Below are positions 6,487-31,371 of a stretch of DNA of 64,000 nucleotides, in pieces. Source of the DNA: a virus; the IMG/VR virus record IMGVR_UViG_3300031787_008607, positions 1 through 64,000 of that record. One strand, given 5' to 3'. The translations under genes and the position numbers were made by a program. The first letter of the stretch is position 1. Every line of letters begins with the position of its first letter. The notes beneath the pieces are model-generated. The model was given only the letters and a program-made list of their open reading frames with translations. It did no database searches and was not told the DNA's origin.

Positions 6487-8358
6487 ATGGGAAAAATAAT
6501 AGGTATTGACCTTGGAACAACTAACTCATGTGTTGCCGTAATGGAAGGTAACGAACCAGTTGTAATTACAAACAGTGAAGGAAAAAGAACCACCCCTTCA
6601 ATTGTGGGTTTCTTAAATGGTGGTGAAAGAAAGGTTGGTGACCCAGCTAAACGTCAGGCGGTTACTAATCCTGATAAGACAATCTCATCTATCAAACGTT
6701 TCATGGGAACAAGTTTTGATGAAAGTAAGGGTGAGGTTAAACGTGTTCCTTATAAAGTAGTTAAAGGTGATGGTGGAACTCCTCGTGTTGAGATTGAGGA
6801 TAGAAAGTATTCACCGCAAGAAATTTCAGCAATGGTTCTTCAAAAGATGAAACAAACTGCTGAGGATTATTTGGGAAGTGAAGTAACTGAAGCGGTTATC
6901 ACCGTACCAGCATACTTCAACGACGCTCAACGTCAAGCTACGAAAGAAGCTGGTGAGATTGCGGGATTAAAGGTAATGAGAATTGTTAACGAACCAACTG
7001 CTGCGGCACTTGCTTACGGATTGGATAAACAATCAAAAGATATGAAGATTGTTGTGTTTGACTGTGGTGGTGGAACACATGACGTATCGGTATTGGAACT
7101 TGGTGATGGTGTATTTGAAGTATTGTCTACTGATGGTGACACACACCTTGGTGGTGATGACTTTGACCAAGCAATCATTGACTGGTTGGTTACCGAGTTC
7201 AAAGATGAAAACGGAATTGACTTGACAAAAGATGCTATGGCTCTTCAACGTCTTCGTGAAGCGGCTGAAAAGGCGAAGATTGAATTATCTTCTTCACCAT
7301 CTACCGAGATTAACTTACCGTATATTATGCCTGTTGATGGTATACCAAAACACTTGGTAAGAAACTTATCTAAGGCAAAGTTTGAACAACTTGTTGATAG
7401 TTTGGTTGAAAGAACTATTGCTCCTTGTAAGTCGGCATTGAAGAACGCAGGTCTTAAAACATCTGATATTGATGAAATCATTTTGGTTGGAGGTACAACA
7501 CGTATTCCGGCAATTCAGGAAGCGGTTAAGAAGTTCTTCGGTAAGGAACCATCAAAGGGTGTTAACCCTGATGAGGTTGTTGCTCTTGGAGCGGCAATTC
7601 AGGCAGGTGTATTGGCGGGTGATGTGAAAGATGTATTGTTATTAGATGTAACACCACTATCACTTGGTATTGAAACTATGGGTGGGGTATTCACAAAGTT
7701 GATTGAAGCCAACACAACAATCCCGACTAAGAAGTCACAGGTATTCTCAACCGCAGTTGATAACCAACCTACCGTTGAAATCCATGTATTACAAGGTGAG
7801 AGAGCAATGGCGAAAGACAACCGAACCATTGGACGTTTCCACTTGGATGGTATCCCACCAGCAATGAGAGGTATTCCACAGGTTGAGGTAACATTTGATA
7901 TTGATGCTAACGGTATCATCAATGTATCGGCTCTTGATAAAGGAACTAACAAACAACAAAATATCCGTATTGAATCATCATCAGGACTTTCGAAAGAAGA
8001 GATTGAAAAGATGAGACAAGAGGCGGAGATGAACGCTGAATCAGATAAGAAAGTAAAAGAAGATGCTGAGGTTATCAACCAAGCTGACTCAACAATCTTC
8101 CAAGTGGAAAAGTCTTTAAAAGATATTGAAGACAAAATCACGGAAGAACAAAAGTCAGAGGTAACTACCGCTCTTGAAGAATTGAAATCCGCTCATTCAT
8201 CAAAGGACATTGAGAAAATTAAAGAAGGAATTGAGAACATTAATAATGTATTTCAAGGTATTACGGCAAATCTTTATAGTCAAGCGTCTGAAATGAATGA
8301 AACTATGACTGATGATTCTGAAGTATCTGATGTAGATTTTGAAGAAGTTGGTAAGTAG
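6487..8358 (+). CDS. dnaK: Hsp70 chaperone DnaK
   Basis: 623 aa, full length. ATP-driven folding chaperone, normally working with DnaJ and GrpE; neither is in the window. The ATPase domain has [13 protein letters not shown] at the N-terminus, [13 protein letters not shown], a phosphate-2 loop reading [10 protein letters not shown], and GGTTRIPA. The substrate-binding domain covers about residues 385-505, then a lid and a C-terminal VDFEEVGK. The GGG loop departs from the usual DLGGGTFD (Cys for Leu, His for Phe), which may tune ATP turnover. Its own promoter region and terminator make it a monocistron. The sequence is Bacteroidota-like, suggesting acquisition from a host. Confidence 0.97.
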
Positions 8359-8378
8359 TTCACAACCAACTAATGTTA

Positions 8379-8407
8379 AAACCCCTCAAATTTGAGGGGT
8401 TTTTTTA
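8379..8407 (+). terminator. intrinsic terminator after dnaK
   Basis: AACCCCTCAAATTTGAGGGG is a perfect stem followed by T7. Confidence 0.9.
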
Positions 8408-8430
8408 TTTAATAAAAGTATTTATGAAAT

Positions 8431-10017
8431 ATGACGAAAAATACAAAAATCTATTTACTTTTTGCAATAACCATTATGTCTTTATTCTTTTTTGTTAAAA
8501 CTTCAGTTTTACTTGAGATAACAGACTCGACAAGATTTACAAGAGGTTTGGAATATACTTGTTTCCTATTATTTATTCCTCTTTTTATTTTAATAGTTCG
8601 TGGTATTACTAGTGTTCAGGCTAAAAAACTTGATGAAATGAATAAGTTCATTGATAAGGCGGCTATTATATCGGTTACCGATAGAAAGGGTAGAATAACT
8701 TATGTGAATGAAAAGTTTGAAAAAGTTTCAGGATGGAAACTTAACGAGGTTATTGGTAAAGACCACTCAATAGTTAATTCGGGAACACAACCTGATGGAT
8801 ATTGGGGTAAGATGTATGAAACGGTATTAAAAGGTGAGATATGGAATGACATTGTTTGTAATAAAGCTAAAGATGGTAGTTTATATTATGTTGATACATA
8901 TATAAAGGCAAGATTTGGGACTGATGGTAGATTAGATGGTTTCACCTCTATCAGACAAGATATTACTGATTTAAAGACAAAAGAATTGGATATTAGAAAC
9001 AGAATGAATGCTATTAATCAATCTAATGCGGTGATTGAGTTTGATTTATCAGGGAATATAATTTACGCTAACCAAAACTTTTGTAATGTTATGGGTTATA
9101 CTCTAAAAGAATTAAAGGGAAATCACCACCGTATATTCTGTACGGAAGAATATTCAAAATCAGATGAGTATAAAGAATTTTGGTCTAAGTTAAAAAATGG
9201 AGACTTTGTATCTGCACAATTCAATAGAATTAAAAAAAATGGTGAAGAAATTTGGTTACAGGCAACATATAATCCAATTTTTGACAATAATGGCCAGTCA
9301 GTTAGAGTTATGAAAATTGCGGTAGATATTACCGACAAAGTTTTACAATCAAAAGAGATTGAAAGAAAAAACACTTACTTGGAACATGCTGCTAAGATAC
9401 TAAGACACGACATGCATTCAGGTATTAACACTTACATACCGAGAGGTATTAATTCATTAGAAAGAAGATTAACTCAAGAAGATATCACTAATCTTAAAAT
9501 TGAAGCTCCACTTAAAATGATTAAGGAAGGACTTAAACATTCACAGAAAGTTTACAAAGGTGTTTATGAGTTTACCAATCTTGTTAAGAAAGATGTGGTA
9601 TTAAATAAAGAAGAATGTAACATTAAGGTAATCCTTTCAGATTACTTATCATCAACAGCTTATGTTAGTCAGGTAGTATTAGAAGATAATCTACCTACAA
9701 TTGAAGTTAACGAACCGTTGTTCTGTACTGCGGTAGATAACCTGATTAGAAATGGTTTAAAGTATAACGATTCACCAACAAAGTTTGTTAAGGTATATTC
9801 CGAAGGGGACACCATTTATATTCAAGATAATGGTAGAGGTATTACTCAAGAAGATTTTAATTATTTATCAAAACCTTATACAAGAAAAGAGGGACAGAAA
9901 GAATCAGGAACTGGTTTGGGTCTTAATATCTGTGTTGCTATTTTAGAGGAACATGGGTTTGAGATTACTTGTGAGAAGAATGAAATAGGAACTAAAATGA
10001 AAATTAAATTTAAATGA
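8431..10017 (+). CDS. membrane sensor histidine kinase with two PAS domains
   Basis: 528 aa. Two N-terminal membrane segments (about 8-24 and 43-60), then PAS domains at about 70-190 and 195-310. A phosphoacceptor region reads ILRHDMHSGINTY with His326, and a HATPase domain has the N-box DNLIRNGLKYN, G1 DNGRG and G2 GTGLGLNIC. It should autophosphorylate on His326 and pass phosphate to a receiver, likely the one at 11982. GTATTTAT lies 5 nt before ATG. Its 3' end overlaps the next gene (ATGA). The kinase core is closely similar to that of the gene at 10643. Confidence 0.92.
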   Translation: MTKNTKIYLLFAITIMSLFFFVKTSVLLEITDSTRFTRGLEYTCFLLFIPLFILIVRGITSVQAKKLDEMNKFIDKAAIISVTDRKGRITYVNEKFEKVSGWKLNEVIGKDHSIVNSGTQPDGYWGKMYETVLKGEIWNDIVCNKAKDGSLYYVDTYIKARFGTDGRLDGFTSIRQDITDLKTKELDIRNRMNAINQSNAVIEFDLSGNIIYANQNFCNVMGYTLKELKGNHHRIFCTEEYSKSDEYKEFWSKLKNGDFVSAQFNRIKKNGEEIWLQATYNPIFDNNGQSVRVMKIAVDITDKVLQSKEIERKNTYLEHAAKILRHDMHSGINTYIPRGINSLERRLTQEDITNLKIEAPLKMIKEGLKHSQKVYKGVYEFTNLVKKDVVLNKEECNIKVILSDYLSSTAYVSQVVLEDNLPTIEVNEPLFCTAVDNLIRNGLKYNDSPTKFVKVYSEGDTIYIQDNGRGITQEDFNYLSKPYTRKEGQKESGTGLGLNICVAILEEHGFEITCEKNEIGTKMKIKFK

Positions 10018-10646
10018 AAACACTAATAACCTTAATCTTTTTAATGATTTCTTTTGTTGGTATGGGACAATTAAAATACCCAATTCAAACAATCTATAAG
10101 GGTGACTCTGTTGTTATTTTAACTATTAAACAATCTTTAGATATTAATAAGGCAATTGACACACAAAGAAAAATTATAAGAGAACAGAGTAAGAAAATAG
10201 TAAAACTGAATAAAACAATTGATAGTTTAAGTAGAATAAATGACCGAGTTAATATCGTTATTGATAGTATACAATATATCGCTGATACAACATATAAGTG
10301 GGCGGATGAATTTAATATGGTCATTAGAGAAAGAGCAATAGGGCCATGTTTACTTTATACTATACCTCCTTATAAGAGTGTATTCTTTTTAGACTTAAGT
10401 CGTTATAGAATGTATAGTACAGGATATGGTGAAAAAATTGAGTTAGAATTAATGTCGGATAAACAATATGCCGAGTTTAGAAGATTACAAGATTTATATT
10501 TTGACAGATACTATCCTACTTTAGATTATTATAAAGAGATTGGGTTTAAAGATTTTAACACTGAGATTGAATTATACGAGAAAGCGATTTGGAAGAATAA
10601 AAACATAATGAGGTTAATGATAAAACAAGAAGAAAAGAAAAAATGA
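10014..10646 (+). CDS. exported coiled-coil protein
   Basis: 210 aa. The signal peptide MKTLITLIFLMISFVGMGQ has a typical Bacteroidota ending. Residues 40-85 form a likely coiled coil. The C-terminal half is aromatic and charged with no known domain. It is wedged between two histidine kinases with 4-nt overlaps on both sides, so it may be a periplasmic sensor or partner (inference from context). Confidence 0.7.
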   Translation: MKTLITLIFLMISFVGMGQLKYPIQTIYKGDSVVILTIKQSLDINKAIDTQRKIIREQSKKIVKLNKTIDSLSRINDRVNIVIDSIQYIADTTYKWADEFNMVIRERAIGPCLLYTIPPYKSVFFLDLSRYRMYSTGYGEKIELELMSDKQYAEFRRLQDLYFDRYYPTLDYYKEIGFKDFNTEIELYEKAIWKNKNIMRLMIKQEEKKK

Positions 10647-11965
10647 AAAAGATAATATTATTACTTTCAGTTATCCTTGTAACATCAACTTCATATTCAC
10701 AAGAAGTTAATTATGAAGATACTATCGTTGATGGTATAAACACCACATGGACGGATAATGATTTGGATACTTTACAAGTTGCTGCTATGGGTATACAAGA
10801 AATTGTTACCACTTGGATTGCTCCTGAACCTGAACCAGAACCTGTTGATGTTACTAAACTTTCAGAGGGAGATTTGGCAAGTATTGCTGAGGACGTTAAG
10901 TTCTTGGACGACTTACCAAAGTCATATAATGATTTACCTAAGGAAGATTTAAAAAATGTATTGATTCAAATTGATAACAAGATTGCTAAACTTACTGCTG
11001 AACGAGATTCATTATTGGCTCAAGCGGTTAGAAATGAAGAACTTATTAAATCCAAAGAAAATACAATCGGTTCATTAGGTAAAGAAAAGAATATCATTGG
11101 TTTAACCTTGGAGACAGATAACTTAACAGATGAGAACGGAAACTTAATACATGAGAAAACTGATTTAGAAAAAGAAAGAGAAACCTTAAAGAAATATCTT
11201 TATAGTGCTTTAGTTGTGTTAGCGATAATCGGTTTAATATTGGCAATCGTCCTACAAAGAAAGAGAATACAAGTACAAGATGTTGAGATTGAACAACAAC
11301 TTACTGACATTGCTAAGAAAAATAGTTACTTGGAACATGCTGCAAGAATTATCCGTCACGATATGCACTCTGGTATTAACACATATATGCCGAGAGGTAT
11401 TACTTCATTAGAGAAGAGATTAACGACTGAAGACATCCAAAGATTAAAGATTGAAGGAGCATTGAAGATGGTTAAGGAAGGATTAAGTCATACACAAAGA
11501 GTTTATAAAAGTGTTTATGAGTTTACCAATCTTGTTAAACAAAATGTTGTATTAAATAAATCTGTGGTTAACGCTAAAGATTTGATTTGGAAATACATAT
11601 CACCAAATTCGTATAGTGTTCAAGTTGAAATTTCTGAGTTGGGTGATATGGAAGTTAACGAGACATTATTCTGTAATGCTATTGAAAACTTAATCAAGAA
11701 TGGTTTATCGTATAACGATAGTGAGGTTAAAAAGGTTAAAATATATAACGAAGAAGAATATTTAATTGTTGAGGACAACGGAAGAGGGTTCACACAAAAA
11801 CAATTTGAAAAACATTTAACAAAGTATTCAAAGAAAGCAGATGTTACTGGTGACGAGAAGGGTCTTGGATTGAATATCTGTGTTGCGATATTGGAAGAGC
11901 ATGGTTTTAAATTGAGTTGTGAAAAAATTGAAGGTGGAACCAAAATGAAAATAAAAATAAAATAA
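10643..11965 (+). CDS. sensor histidine kinase with periplasmic coiled coil
   Basis: 440 aa. Signal peptide (1-19), a periplasmic acidic region (APEPEPEPVDV), a long coiled coil (~100-180), one membrane helix (~183-203), then a kinase core: IIRHDMHSGINTY with His239, N-box ENLIKNGLSYN, G1 DNGRG, G2 EKGLGLNIC. The core is a paralogue of the one at 8431 but the input domain differs, so the two kinases probably sense different signals yet share a target. It is followed after 16 nt by a response regulator. Confidence 0.92.
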   Translation: MKKIILLLSVILVTSTSYSQEVNYEDTIVDGINTTWTDNDLDTLQVAAMGIQEIVTTWIAPEPEPEPVDVTKLSEGDLASIAEDVKFLDDLPKSYNDLPKEDLKNVLIQIDNKIAKLTAERDSLLAQAVRNEELIKSKENTIGSLGKEKNIIGLTLETDNLTDENGNLIHEKTDLEKERETLKKYLYSALVVLAIIGLILAIVLQRKRIQVQDVEIEQQLTDIAKKNSYLEHAARIIRHDMHSGINTYMPRGITSLEKRLTTEDIQRLKIEGALKMVKEGLSHTQRVYKSVYEFTNLVKQNVVLNKSVVNAKDLIWKYISPNSYSVQVEISELGDMEVNETLFCNAIENLIKNGLSYNDSEVKKVKIYNEEEYLIVEDNGRGFTQKQFEKHLTKYSKKADVTGDEKGLGLNICVAILEEHGFKLSCEKIEGGTKMKIKIK

Positions 11966-11981
11966 AGAAAAAGAAAAAAAC

Positions 11982-12413
11982 ATGATTGATTCAATTTTGT
12001 TAGTGGATGATGAGGATTTGTTCCACTTGGTATTTGAGGACAGTTGTTCCTTGTTAGACATCACATTGTCATTAAAGAGTTTGAATAGTTCTGATGAGGC
12101 GGCTAAATTATTTGCTGATTGGCAAAAAAATTCAGATGGACGACCTGAGTGTGTGTTCGTTGATTTGAACATTATCGGTTCATCCTTTGATGGTATTGAA
12201 CTTATCCGTAAGGTTAATTTTGAATATGGTAACCATGTGGTTATTGGTATTATATCTTCAAGTAACGAACCTGAAGAACAGGCTAAAGCAATTCAGGCTG
12301 GTGCTCAGTTTTGGATTATCAAGTCAGATGATATTGAACCAAGATTGGAAGATTTCAAAAAAGATTATGAGGGTTACAAAAACAGAACCGCGCCATTCAA
12401 AGTTTATAAATGA
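11982..12413 (+). CDS. stand-alone response regulator receiver
   Basis: 143 aa, CheY-like. Acidic pocket Asp9/Asp10, phosphoacceptor Asp61 (FVDLN), Ser cluster ISSS near 92 and Lys114 (IIKSDD). There is no output domain, so it would act by protein contact or phosphorelay. It is adjacent to two kinases and overlaps the next gene by 4 nt, suggesting the coiled-coil membrane protein at 12410 as a possible output partner. Confidence 0.92.
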   Translation: MIDSILLVDDEDLFHLVFEDSCSLLDITLSLKSLNSSDEAAKLFADWQKNSDGRPECVFVDLNIIGSSFDGIELIRKVNFEYGNHVVIGIISSSNEPEEQAKAIQAGAQFWIIKSDDIEPRLEDFKKDYEGYKNRTAPFKVYK

Positions 12414-13096
12414 TAGTATTAGATAAAAATACAAAGAAGTTATTAATAGAAACTTTTAAGACTAAGAACATTGGTCTTGAAGGTAATATTACTAAATTAA
12501 TAGATGCTCAAGACGACGAGGAGTTCAAGGAGTATCTTAAAACTTGTATTGAAAAAGATACTGCATTAAGAAGAAAACGTTTGGAGATGACTAAAAAAGT
12601 TCAGGTTCAAAATAATGATTTGACAACCTTGAATGAAGAAAATCAAAGAATACTTACTGAACTACAAGAAACATTAGATAGTGTTGAGGAACAGAAAAGT
12701 CAGATTGAATGTCAAAACGCCGAATTAATTACTTGGAAAATGGAGAATGAAAAGATTGGGGCAGAGCTTGTTGAGGCGATGAAACAATCTGAAATGGCAA
12801 GAGTCATCGCTGAGAATGCTAAGAACGAAGCGGAGAACAATTTAGATTTAATACAGAAGAAAACTCAATTTGAGTTGATTAATAATATTGTTAGGGTTGC
12901 TCTTTATGTAATCATAGGTGTTGGAGGAATCACGACTGGAATATATGTTTATTCTATGACAATAGGAATGGATACGGACATCATTGGCTCCACTTGGAGT
13001 AATATGTTTGGTATTCTGTTAACAAATAGTTTCAGTATCGTGGGAACAATACTTGGGGTGAAGTATGGTGCTAATCCTGGCAAGGAAGATAAATAA
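12410..13096 (+). CDS. coiled-coil membrane protein, possible signalling output
   Basis: 228 aa. Residues 60-150 are a continuous coiled coil, then two membrane helices (about 160-180 and 195-215) and a short tail LGVKYGANPGKEDK. There is no enzyme motif. The ATGA overlap with the response regulator implies coupled expression. Domain order suggests a cytoplasmic coil reading the receiver state and a membrane C-terminus; a holin-like role is an alternative. Unproven. Confidence 0.65.
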   Translation: MIVLDKNTKKLLIETFKTKNIGLEGNITKLIDAQDDEEFKEYLKTCIEKDTALRRKRLEMTKKVQVQNNDLTTLNEENQRILTELQETLDSVEEQKSQIECQNAELITWKMENEKIGAELVEAMKQSEMARVIAENAKNEAENNLDLIQKKTQFELINNIVRVALYVIIGVGGITTGIYVYSMTIGMDTDIIGSTWSNMFGILLTNSFSIVGTILGVKYGANPGKEDK

Positions 13097-13113
13097 ACAA
13101 AAAAAATAAAAAA

Positions 13114-13656
13114 ATGAGTAGATTAAAAAAGTTAATTTTCGGTGAAACTCCGTATGTAAAGGTTGAAGATAAAAATAGATTTTATTACATGCTTCAACAG
13201 ATGCAGGCAAACAGATGGAAGATAACAATGATTGTATTGTTCTTATTTTTTTTCATCATTGCTGGTATAAACTCCGCAGTATTTTTCGGTGTATCAATTG
13301 AAGAGAACTGGAAAGAAATGTTATTGATATTGTTCGGAGCATTCGTTGGTAATCTTAACAAGGTTGTTGATTACTGGTTTAACTCTGAGGATAGAGATAA
13401 GATGTTAATCCAAAAGGTTGATGAAGAGGACGGAACAGTATTATCTAATGTTTCAGAATACCCAACAACCCCAAGACCACCACAACCACCAGTTGTTGTA
13501 GTTACACAAGTTAAAGAAGAAACTCCTGTGGTTGTTGAAGAACCAGTTGTTTATGAAGAACCGACAACTTATACTGAACCTGAGGTGTATGAGGAACCAA
13601 TCGTTGAGGAATACCCAACAGAGGAACCTACACAAGAAGGTGAAGAAAACATATAA
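13114..13656 (+). CDS. two-helix membrane protein with Pro/Glu/Val-rich tail
   Basis: 180 aa. Two membrane helices (about 38-58 and 68-86), then FVGNLNKVVDYWFNSEDRDK. The last 70 residues are a low-complexity tail of VVEEP and YEEP repeats. The hydrophobic pair and following WFNS segment resemble small phage holin-like proteins, but no family is certain. It is the last gene of the signalling operon before a strong terminator. Confidence 0.6.
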   Translation: MSRLKKLIFGETPYVKVEDKNRFYYMLQQMQANRWKITMIVLFLFFFIIAGINSAVFFGVSIEENWKEMLLILFGAFVGNLNKVVDYWFNSEDRDKMLIQKVDEEDGTVLSNVSEYPTTPRPPQPPVVVVTQVKEETPVVVEEPVVYEEPTTYTEPEVYEEPIVEEYPTEEPTQEGEENI

Positions 13657-13674: not shown

Positions 13675-13704
13675 AAAACCCCACTTGAAAAGGTGGGGTT
13701 TTTG
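13675..13704 (+). terminator. intrinsic terminator of the signalling operon
   Basis: AACCCCAC/GTGGGGTT stem with an 8-nt loop and T-run. Confidence 0.9.
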
Positions 13705-14172: not shown

Positions 14173-14364
14173 ATGAAAACAATTAGAAAAATTCTTTTAG
14201 TATTACCAATCTTAGTAGCCTTATTACTTTTAGTGACTTTAACCATATCAGCATTTACTGGTAATGATATTGAAAACTACTTGGATGTTAAGTGGTGGGG
14301 TCTCTTCCTTTTGGTTGAGATTTGGGCTGAACAAAAATATCAAAAATTAAATGATGGTGAATAA
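14173..14364 (+). CDS. small membrane protein, 63 aa
   Basis: Two hydrophobic segments (8-28 and about 40-52) with a WW motif between them. Unknown function. The 3' end overlaps the methylglyoxal synthase start by 14 nt, suggesting coupling. Confidence 0.55.
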   Translation: MKTIRKILLVLPILVALLLLVTLTISAFTGNDIENYLDVKWWGLFLLVEIWAEQKYQKLNDGE

Positions 14365-14737
14365 GTTAAGGTTTGCGGTCATTGCTCACGACAATAAGAA
14401 GGCGGACATGGTTGCCTTCATCATGAAGAGGTTGGACTTCTTCAAAGATAACGTTGAAATATTTGCAACAGGAACAACTGGTAAACATATTGAGTTTGCA
14501 GGATTGGATGTTATAAGGTTGAAGTCAGGGCCAATGGGTGGTGATGCTCAGATTGCAGCCATGATTGTAGAAAATAAGATTGATTGTGTTATTTTCTTCA
14601 TTGACCCTTTATCGGCTCACCCACACGAAGTTGATGTTCAGATGTTGGTTCGTATCTGTAATGTAACTGACACACCAATTGCTTGTAATTACGCTACGGC
14701 AAGTATGTTGATTAATTATTTTGAAAATCAAAAATAA
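14351..14737 (+). CDS. mgsA: methylglyoxal synthase
   Basis: 128 aa, a near full-length match to the family. It converts dihydroxyacetone phosphate to methylglyoxal plus phosphate (EC 4.2.3.3). Visible family motifs are AVIAHDNKK, ATGTTGKHIE, RLKSGPMGGDAQI with the catalytic Asp, FFIDPLSAHPHEVDV with His, and ACNYATA. Two adjacent Met codons could serve as start. In cells it bypasses lower glycolysis when phosphate is limiting; in a phage it might free phosphate during infection (inference). Confidence 0.93.
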   Translation: MMVNKLRFAVIAHDNKKADMVAFIMKRLDFFKDNVEIFATGTTGKHIEFAGLDVIRLKSGPMGGDAQIAAMIVENKIDCVIFFIDPLSAHPHEVDVQMLVRICNVTDTPIACNYATASMLINYFENQK

Positions 14738-15458: not shown

Positions 15459-15908
15459 ATGAAAATATATTTGGATGATGTAAGAACACCTGTTGAAAGA
15501 GACTGGCAGGTTGTTAGAACTTTTTATGAACTATCTGATTTAATCCAAAAGGTTGGATTGAATGCTGTTGATGTTATATCATTAGACCACGACTTGGGAG
15601 ATAGTGCTATGAATGAATACCACACAAACGTTTCACCTAATTATAAATTGAGTTATGAAAACATTACTGAAAAAACTGGCTACGATGCTGCGAAGTTCTT
15701 GGTTGACGAATTCTATAAACTAAACCCTGAAAGATTGGAGATGGGTTATTCCAACCGAAAGAGAGAACCAATTAAGTTCCCTGATGTTTATACTCACTCT
15801 GCTAATCCTATTGGTAGTGCTAACATTATGGGTTATATCAATAACTTCTTGATGAATGAGGGTAAACCACAAAATTGTATCAGAGTTCAAATACCACATA
15901 CCGTATGA
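15459..15908 (+). CDS. cyclic-phosphate processing receiver (cREC) protein
   Basis: 149 aa. It begins MKIYLDDVRTP, with VISLDHDLG and a C-terminal VYTHSANPIGSANIMGYI, the signature of cREC domains: receiver-like folds proposed from comparative genomics to process cyclic-phosphate RNA ends. It lacks a classical response-regulator context here and sits near a P-loop kinase and an RNA ligase, supporting the RNA-repair reading. It overlaps the next gene by 4 nt. Confidence 0.8.
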   Translation: MKIYLDDVRTPVERDWQVVRTFYELSDLIQKVGLNAVDVISLDHDLGDSAMNEYHTNVSPNYKLSYENITEKTGYDAAKFLVDEFYKLNPERLEMGYSNRKREPIKFPDVYTHSANPIGSANIMGYINNFLMNEGKPQNCIRVQIPHTV

Positions 15909-30156: not shown

Positions 30157-30483
30157 ATGAAGTATGATTACTATGGTTTGAAGTCTAAGTTGGATGATTT
30201 TTTAAATTTATACGATGAGGATATTGTTAAACAAGGTTGGACTATAATATCTAAACCGTGTGACGACTGTAAGGATTACGATATTAATTTAAGATACTCT
30301 GACCCTAAATATTGTTATGAGACAACAACGGGGAGTAAGAAATATAATTTGGATTATCTATTTGTTGAAAAAATAGATAAGAACAAACAAAATAAGACAA
30401 TATTTGCTTCAGCTAAAAAGATGGGTTTAGAGATAAATGATAAAGGTTTAATCTCTAATTTAGGCAATATCAAACTTTCTTGA
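30157..30483 (+). CDS. unknown protein, 108 aa
   Basis: ATG 30157 is preferred to a TTG three codons upstream. Contains PCDDCKDYD, a possible metal or disulfide site. Its last 24 nt overlap the 3' end of the minus-strand lysin gene, so the two are convergent with no terminator between them. Confidence 0.5.
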   Translation: MKYDYYGLKSKLDDFLNLYDEDIVKQGWTIISKPCDDCKDYDINLRYSDPKYCYETTTGSKKYNLDYLFVEKIDKNKQNKTIFASAKKMGLEINDKGLISNLGNIKLS

Positions 30484-31371
30484 ATATTTTACAGCATTAT
30501 CTCTGTGACTTGATACTCCACCACCGGCGTTGATATCTGCAAAATATTCTGCGGCTTGTTTCTTTGTTTCAAATTTCGGAAATCCTGACTTTTTTCCTTT
30601 TGTGAAGAACATGATTGCTACTTGAGCGGCGGTTAATGGGTTATTGACTTCATCAGGGTTCCCAACTAAATCTTTACCAATTAGACCACCATATTTTCGA
30701 TAGTTTCCTATACCTGTTAACTGATTAAATCCTCTACCTCTATATTTGTAGCCATCATTGTCATCAGTTCCATTTTTACCATTACCAACAGTATTGGCAT
30801 ATATTAAATTGTAAAACTTTTTATCATCTTGTTTAAGTTGATTGATTTCAGAATCTGAAAGATGAGAAACTCTTTTTCCAAAAAGATGTCTTATTCTACC
30901 AACACCTGTATTAGAATAAGATGTTTCTGATTTTGGTATGTAGTTACTTTCTTTACCAATTACGGATAGTATACCAATTTGAGCCATTGGGTCTGTAATA
31001 CCAAAATCATTCATTGCATCAACCAATAAATCAATGTTTCTCGCTCTTTTTCCTGAAAATTTGTGAATTAATTTACCTGAAAAATTATCCTCATTTCCAT
31101 ATGTTAAATCATTAAGTTTTGCGTCTGTAAATTTATCCTTAAGATATTTTTCTTCCTCACCTGTTAAATCTTCTTTATTATTTGTGATGTTGTTAATAAT
31201 TTTACTTACATCTGTTGTACCAAAAGTTTCTTCCGCAAACTTTTTAACCGCTTGACCTACCTCTGTTTGTTTTAAATAATCAATCGCATCATCTAAAAAA
31301 CCTTCATTTAGATTATATAATTTTTTAATATCTTTTTTTTCGTTTTCAGAAATAATAAGTTTTTTACTCAT
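30460..31371 (-). CDS. tagged GH19-type endolysin-like protein
   Basis: 303 aa. The C-terminal ~200 residues match the chitinase-19/lysozyme-like fold: GKESNYIPKSE with a candidate catalytic Glu, FGKRVSHL, YKYRGRGFNQLTGIGNYRKY and NPLTAAQVAIMFF. It probably cuts peptidoglycan. The N-terminus MSKKLIISENEKKDIKKLYN is a minor tag variant with an I-S-E site. A tagged lysin would suit a virion-associated, entry-phase enzyme rather than a free endolysin (inference). Confidence 0.8.
   Translation of the reverse strand: MSKKLIISENEKKDIKKLYNLNEGFLDDAIDYLKQTEVGQAVKKFAEETFGTTDVSKIINNITNNKEDLTGEEEKYLKDKFTDAKLNDLTYGNEDNFSGKLIHKFSGKRARNIDLLVDAMNDFGITDPMAQIGILSVIGKESNYIPKSETSYSNTGVGRIRHLFGKRVSHLSDSEINQLKQDDKKFYNLIYANTVGNGKNGTDDNDGYKYRGRGFNQLTGIGNYRKYGGLIGKDLVGNPDEVNNPLTAAQVAIMFFTKGKKSGFPKFETKKQAAEYFADINAGGGVSSHRDNAVKYSRKFDIA

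Follow-up and report, generated by a model that had tools for sequence, protein, structure and literature searches.

The presence of a complete set of signalling genes in a phage genome raises the question of what a virus would sense, and which process it would control in response. Here, we address this question for six open reading frames (ORFs) at positions 8431–13656 of a 64,000-nucleotide stretch, hereafter the window, which comprises bases 1–64000 of the 132,705-base IMG/VR viral record IMGVR_UViG_3300031787_008607. The six ORFs form a single operon flanked by two terminators and encode, in order, the histidine kinase HK1, the exported protein S210, a second histidine kinase HK2, the stand-alone receiver REC, and the membrane proteins M228 and M180. 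A first-pass annotation of this DNA had described a complete phage-borne two-component operon that unites two kinases of nearly the same catalytic core with a receiver-only regulator, and the sequence supports an apparently complete operon of this kind: all six ORFs are in place, the HK1 and HK2 cores are 61% identical over 217 amino acids (aa), and REC matches PF00072 (33.7 bits; cut-off 30.2) with its active-site residues present. We consider it probable that the operon constitutes a phage two-component system with a private output, and that the process it regulates is most likely the timing of lysis.

The gene order kinase–REC–M228, a survey of which in other phages had been proposed by the first-pass annotation, recurs as an invariant core in about 100 distinct uncultured viral cassettes, far above chance. 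The M228 N-terminal domain (N-domain) adjoins REC in 19/19 large contigs that carry the receiver and is absent from 5/5 that do not, and the REC and M228 reading frames overlap by 4 or 1 nt in 80/85 cases. One contig, G628, possesses the phosphoesterase gene that neighbours the cassette and has no receiver, kinases, or N-domain. At least 396 viral stretches in IMG/VR harbor a REC relative, and at least 593 an HK2 relative. A tblastn search of INPHARED (50,697 phage records) returned no match for HK2, REC, M228, or M180, and the matches to HK1 were limited to PAS or weak kinase fragments. The earlier statement that phages rarely carry even one kinase thus holds for public phage records but not for uncultured viruses, hundreds of whose contigs carry this one. 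This sensor-kinase switch is carried by a large family of T4-like viruses that infect Bacteroidetes and are uncultured, and a membrane protein specific to the viruses is the sole output dedicated to it.

The first-pass annotation would be refuted if the stretch were host chromosome. The contig is instead that of a T4-like phage, because it encodes a T4-type terminase (PF03237, 43.3 bits), a gp20-type portal (PF07230, 4.5e-75), and a gp23-type major head protein (phrog_138, 3.6e-66); the T4 portal family is present in 16/23 large contigs that carry the cassette or its kinase. Flavobacterium phage immuto and uncultured huge phages have the terminases that come closest among public phage records, at ~28% identity, and therefore no cultured relative is known from the public phage record collection. 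For contigs with near-identical terminases, the cassette site is expected beyond their ends, judged by the distances in the window contig. These phage genes bear directly on the explanation that the operon is a host leftover, acquired horizontally and devoid of phage function, or that the contig is a misassigned bacterial one. The kinases and receivers do belong to bacterial families, and a related cassette occurs in two Bacteroidetes metagenome-assembled genomes (MAGs); against this, a REC-related sequence was found in 1/395 Bacteroidota genomes as compared to the at least 396 viral stretches, REC is under strong purifying selection, and the operon is preceded by a phage-type promoter motif (both described below), which together render this explanation highly improbable. 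Close receivers are very rare in bacteria: among the sampled Bacteroidota genomes, only the seed genomes were recovered when a close receiver or M228 N-domain was sought, and L162, one of three receiver matches in bacterial bins, resembles phage DNA inside a MAG. The rare bacterial versions are L164:5709-9090, in which the third gene is a fusion of the N-domain to a kinase, and L163:5032-8432, a kinase–receiver pair with no N-domain gene.

REC possesses no domain other than PF00072, and its catalytic residues Asp9, Asp10, Asp61, Ser92, and Lys114 are invariant in 91/91 distinct sequences; no residue required for its phosphorylation is missing. In most loci REC is 83–98% identical to the window copy, while four-fold degenerate sites are near saturation in the distant loci. 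For the same loci, identity to the window is mostly 56–91% for HK1, 49–91% for M228, and 77–98% for the chaperone DnaK, with REC exceeding DnaK in most loci where both could be compared. These comparisons indicate strong purifying selection on REC, which is unusually constrained. The first-helix region of REC is nearly frozen, as is the H-box region of the kinases among relatives, a pattern to be expected of two kinases that act on a common receiver.

Both kinases match the ATPase domain HATPase_c (PF02518; 54.8 and 46.0 bits). Among 145 kinase ORFs, the phospho-acceptor box RHD(M/L)HSG is present in 144, the DNG motif in 144, and the GLGL motif in 139. The Pfam HisKA model matched neither HK1 nor HK2, and the dimerization domain is therefore divergent. 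Matches to the PAS families PF08447 and PF13426 were by themselves taken as uninformative before the flavin-contacting residues were checked. The closest PDB relatives of the first PAS domain of HK1 (PAS1) are MmoS PAS-A (2e-29), Aer (4e-17), and NifL (8e-12), each of them a flavin redox sensor. The flavin contacts of Aer are His53, Asn85, and Arg115, with equivalents in MmoS (PMC9668731); these correspond to His112, Asn144, and Arg175 of HK1 PAS1. The His/Asn/Arg triad is kept in 56/56 HK1 homologs having these positions, in a survey that covered HK1 homologs only. Flavin binding by HK1 PAS1 is thus a strong prediction. The kinase inputs differ among cassettes, being two membrane helices with PAS, GAF with PAS, or soluble PAS. 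S210 and HK2 are optional: S210 relatives lie directly 5′ of HK2 in 24/40 distinct multi-kinase cassettes counted, and the S210 N-terminus weakly resembles an exported protein of the L012 endolysin cluster (hhalign, 77%). HK2-type kinases with an intact H-box were also observed in large phage contigs showing neither REC nor M228 (L111:7602-9089, L112:7632-9095, and L116:7524-9056).

The AlphaFold2 model of M228 has a mean pLDDT of 83.6, with a pTM of 0.32 that leaves the arrangement of its domains uncertain. In the model, a small N-terminal part is followed by a helix spanning residues 37–185 that enters the membrane, and by a second membrane helix (residues 190–220). The N-domain and the membrane hairpin are the conserved parts, connected by a coiled coil of variable length; invariant within the hairpin are Trp196, the GILLTN motif, Phe208-Ser209, and Lys218-Tyr219. 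Full-length M228 has no relative in 84,980 bacterial and archaeal species. A PDB fold search using the M228 model returned nothing, and a search of BFVD returned a single match, an uncharacterized 218-aa protein of an uncultured phage with 53% identity that evidently belongs to the same family. M180 is present only in a subset of relatives and lies outside the conserved core. Of the two coiled-coil membrane proteins that had been annotated, only M228 answers to that description, while the N-terminal half of M180 contains two membrane helices and its tail is rich in Pro and Glu.

Which protein the receiver acts upon is suggested by the bacterial cassette L164, the sole clear clue from outside the phages, which is found on a Bacteroidetes MAG contig. 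There, a PAS kinase and a receiver 66% identical to REC are followed by a 349-aa protein in which the M228 N-domain is fused to HisKA and HATPase_c domains. When folded without an alignment, this fusion protein gave a pLDDT of 49.9 and the model was useless. The M228 N-domain is a likely receiver target because, in this one bacterial genome, it is fused to a kinase behind the same receiver. We thus regard the N-domain as a putative input module that follows this receiver and is connected to differing outputs, a kinase in the L164 bacterium and a membrane hairpin in the phages. The same fusion can be read otherwise, with the real output of REC being another kinase or a host regulator, by phosphorelay or by inhibition of a host kinase in the manner of DivK and Osp, and M228 only an anchor or sink that localizes REC. 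Single-domain receivers often act on kinases, as Osp does on CckA (PMC9430884), and the extreme conservation of REC suggests several partners; on the other hand, an anchor would not need the invariant membrane hairpin of M228, and phages with REC never lose M228. We consider this reading improbable.

The link to lysis comes from the neighborhood of the cassette in relatives. Among distinct cassettes with at least 2.5 kb of flanking sequence on both sides, 34/49 have an endolysin gene no more than 2.5 kb away. In large contigs that hold both a cassette and a GH19 endolysin, the two are within 1.5 kb of each other in 13/14, against an expectation of ~0.3 (chance ~1e-21, ignoring shared descent). 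A search of all loci placed an endolysin combining PG_binding_1 and GH19 domains (phrog_181, 5e-68) beside many window-type cassettes, and in 17 distinct cassettes it immediately follows M228. Others have an unrelated endolysin of the peptidase type (phrog_894, 4e-38). In the more divergent cassettes L266–L281, Phage_holin_4_1 genes touch the cassette and endolysins with PG_binding and Amidase_2 domains are nearby; the holin genes in contact with a cassette are those of L153, L266, L273, and L279. The endolysins are placed downstream, upstream, divergently, or convergently relative to the cassette, and these different types and arrangements speak for repeated association. That the cassette stands beside a cell wall-cutting gene in many relatives points to viruses that time the bursting of the cell by sensing its state.

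Several observations weigh against a role in lysis timing. The neighborhood statistics ignore shared descent, and 15/49 relatives have no endolysin within 2.5 kb. The window itself has no endolysin beside the operon, the nearest GH19-like gene being ~17 kb away, and for this phage the lysis link is therefore by homology only. Four contigs (385, 281, 176, and 42 kb) possess an HK2-type kinase with neither REC nor M228. M228 did not match a holin family by PHROGs, Pfam, PDB sequence, PDB fold, or hhalign searches, and in some relatives (L053 and L067) the endolysin is followed by a distinct membrane ORF of 55 aa, because of which M228 need not be the holin. The lysis-timing control proposed in the first-pass annotation is hence supported indirectly by relatives, through their adjoining endolysins of unrelated types and Phage_holin_4_1 genes, but not by an adjacent endolysin in the window. 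Its argument from the holin-like size of the last two proteins does not stand, as neither matches a holin family; for M180, Pfam and PHROG holin families were searched. Alignment by hhalign of M228 and M180 to the holin-like neighbors also gave no match. A common holin-like fold for M180 and M228 was likewise rejected on the basis of hhalign.

An alternative is an operon that works at the host membrane and not on lysis, with M228 serving as an effector at the envelope, in superinfection exclusion, or in host takeover that is switched by redox and periplasmic signals, and with the nearness of endolysins reflecting a shared late gene block. The lack of a holin match for M228, the cassettes with no endolysin nearby (the window among them), and the neighbors in the window lineage, namely dnaK, methylglyoxal synthase, and a phosphoesterase, are all in keeping with it. 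Shared late expression alone would not predict the 13/14 adjacency to endolysins, their three unrelated types, or their several arrangements, and we regard this alternative as unlikely.

Within the lysis-timing reading, the absence of a holin match together with the other holin-like ORF in some relatives leaves M228 as either a holin regulator or a regulated holin. Its topology, with a cytoplasmic N-domain, a hairpin, and a short C-terminal tail, would fit a two-helix holin. We tentatively put forward, as a possibility that we do not favor outright, that M228 is a signal-gated holin, that is, a lysis pore or direct gate equipped with a cytoplasmic receiver-docking domain, such that REC phosphorylation by redox and envelope kinases would directly set the moment of lysis.

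A working model for lysis-timing control can be proposed as follows. HK1 would read the redox or energy state through its flavin-type PAS domain near the membrane, and HK2, if present, would read the periplasm jointly with the exported S210. Both kinases would phosphorylate the one shared REC, which would dock on the M228 N-domain, and the long helix would relay the change to the state of the membrane hairpin. M228 may then act as the regulated holin itself, or as a promoter or restrainer of the phage holin, so that endolysin would be released on host energy or envelope signals. In this model, phosphotransfer, the docking of REC on M228, and the binding of flavin are inferred, as is the direction of control, which could be a trigger or a delay. 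If the model is true, a widespread group of uncultured large phages would run lysis through an entire two-component sensory circuit responsive to the redox state and envelope of the host, and not by an internal holin clock or antiholin. Phage lysis timing would then have a previously unrecognized level of control, with M228 as a phage-specific effector family for receivers, and the circuit would offer a clear, reconstitutable system in which to study the viral decision on the moment of host death.

The organization of the operon is summarized in Table 1. The genes had been annotated as joined by ATGA overlaps, which is the case at three of the five junctions (HK1/S210, S210/HK2, and REC/M228); HK2 and REC are separated by a 16 nt gap, and M228 and M180 by a 17 nt gap. 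Terminators upstream of HK1 are also present in relatives L014, L036, L038, L040, and L100. The TATTTAT motif occurs within 60 nt upstream of 45/210 contig genes, nearly always 10–29 nt before the start, with the terminase and several head-region genes among them. Among relatives, TATTTAT lies 8–32 nt before 24/70 first genes of the cassette, with start codons being uncertain in many of the other first genes, and before 0/224 internal genes. Because the motif precedes first genes and never internal genes, the cassette is read as one transcription unit with a phage-type promoter. Expression is probably late. Across the contig, TATTTAT stands 10–29 nt before the starts of ~40 genes on both strands (e.g., 8418–8425, and upstream of 94122), making it a candidate promoter of the phage that would leave very short leaders.

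Table 1 Features of the two-component operon and its boundaries (window coordinates).
Feature	Position	Strand	Details
Intrinsic terminator ending the dnaK unit	8378..8406	+	CCCCTCAAATTTGAGGGG + T run, read in sequence
GTATTTAT promoter-like phage motif	8418..8425	+	6 nt upstream of HK1 start codon; TATTTAT starts 12 nt upstream
HK1: histidine kinase core (H326) preceded by two N-terminal membrane helices and two PAS domains	8431..10017	+	528 aa; Pfam PAS + HATPase_c
S210: exported coiled-coil protein, optional HK2 partner	10014..10646	+	210 aa; signal peptide judged by eye
HK2: signal-peptide-like start, periplasmic N-terminal part, one membrane helix, kinase core	10643..11965	+	440 aa; HATPase_c
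REC: stand-alone receiver, D61 phospho-acceptor	11982..12413	+	143 aa; PF00072
M228: N-terminal domain (aa 1-75), long helix, two-helix membrane hairpin; proposed REC output	12410..13096	+	228 aa; AlphaFold2 model
M180: two-helix membrane protein, Pro/Glu-rich tail; final gene of unit, lineage-specific	13114..13656	+	180 aa; no family match
Intrinsic terminator closing the operon	13676..13703	+	CCCCACTTGAAAAGGTGGGG + T run, read in sequence

Other genes near the operon were also recorded. A complete phage DnaK is encoded at 6487–8358 of the window (NCBIfam PRK00290, 1009 bits), and in phages L022 and L027 it directly follows the cassette. Positions 14351–14737 encode a methylglyoxal synthase-like phage protein (NCBIfam PRK05234, 160 bits, above cut-off). 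At 15459–15908, 3 kb after the true receiver, lies a cREC_REC domain (PF20274), a receiver-like domain of phages for which a role in cyclic-nucleotide processing has been proposed. A 303-aa GH19-like ORF at 30460–31371 on the minus strand is related to the cassette-side endolysins of relatives (64 bits over the catalytic part). Beyond the window, L003:165-1952 (contig 64165–65952) is a 595-aa ORF, preceded by TATTTAT, that combines a PPK2 domain (PF03976, 237.6 bits) with a phage lysozyme domain (PF00959, 39.8 bits); this odd fusion may be the muralytic enzyme of this phage. In a phage without the cassette, an 800-aa ORF (L251:7268-9670, minus strand) resembles, by eye, phosphoenolpyruvate synthase or pyruvate phosphate dikinase.

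The papers searched gave no description of M228, of its pairing with a phage receiver, or of a two-component circuit beside lysis genes, and searches of them for histidine kinases or two-component systems encoded by phages or viruses returned none; a jumbo-phage survey mentions histidine-kinase systems only as a contrast to cREC. The kinase core motifs and the receiver active site are shared with classical two-component systems and with DivK and Osp, the latter acting on CckA by protein contact through a receiver with no DNA-binding domain (PMC9430884). Here, in contrast, the receiver is encoded by a T4-like phage and is unusually conserved, and its proposed partner is a phage coiled-coil membrane hairpin protein. 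HK1 PAS1 matches the flavin PAS sensors Aer, MmoS, and NifL and has the His, Asn, and Arg flavin contacts described for Aer and MmoS (PMC9668731), while differing from these sensors in feeding a phage kinase, and its flavin binding is predicted. The bacterial L164 cassette is alike in its PAS kinase, its receiver, and a protein starting with the M228 N-domain, and differs in that the N-domain is fused to a HisKA/HATPase kinase and not to a membrane hairpin. The Clostridioides difficile phage phiCDHM1 carries agr genes that include a phage-borne histidine kinase, AgrC, with no response regulator of its own (PMC3901668); that kinase is of the quorum-sensing type and stands alone, whereas kinase, receiver, and output are all present here. 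Lysis inhibition in T4, which involves the T holin and the RI and RIII antiholins (PMC6832632), and in N4 (PMC12642591) resembles the proposed circuit in coupling an outside or physiological signal to lysis time and in combining periplasmic sensing with membrane parts. No sequence relation to these systems was found, the six operon proteins having no PHROG lysis match in searches that did not use T4 T, RI, and RIII as direct queries. In T4 and N4 an antiholin binds the holin, whereas the signal would pass by phosphotransfer here. The kinase and receiver families of the operon are known, and its nearest precedents, phiCDHM1 agrC and T4 and N4 lysis inhibition, work differently.

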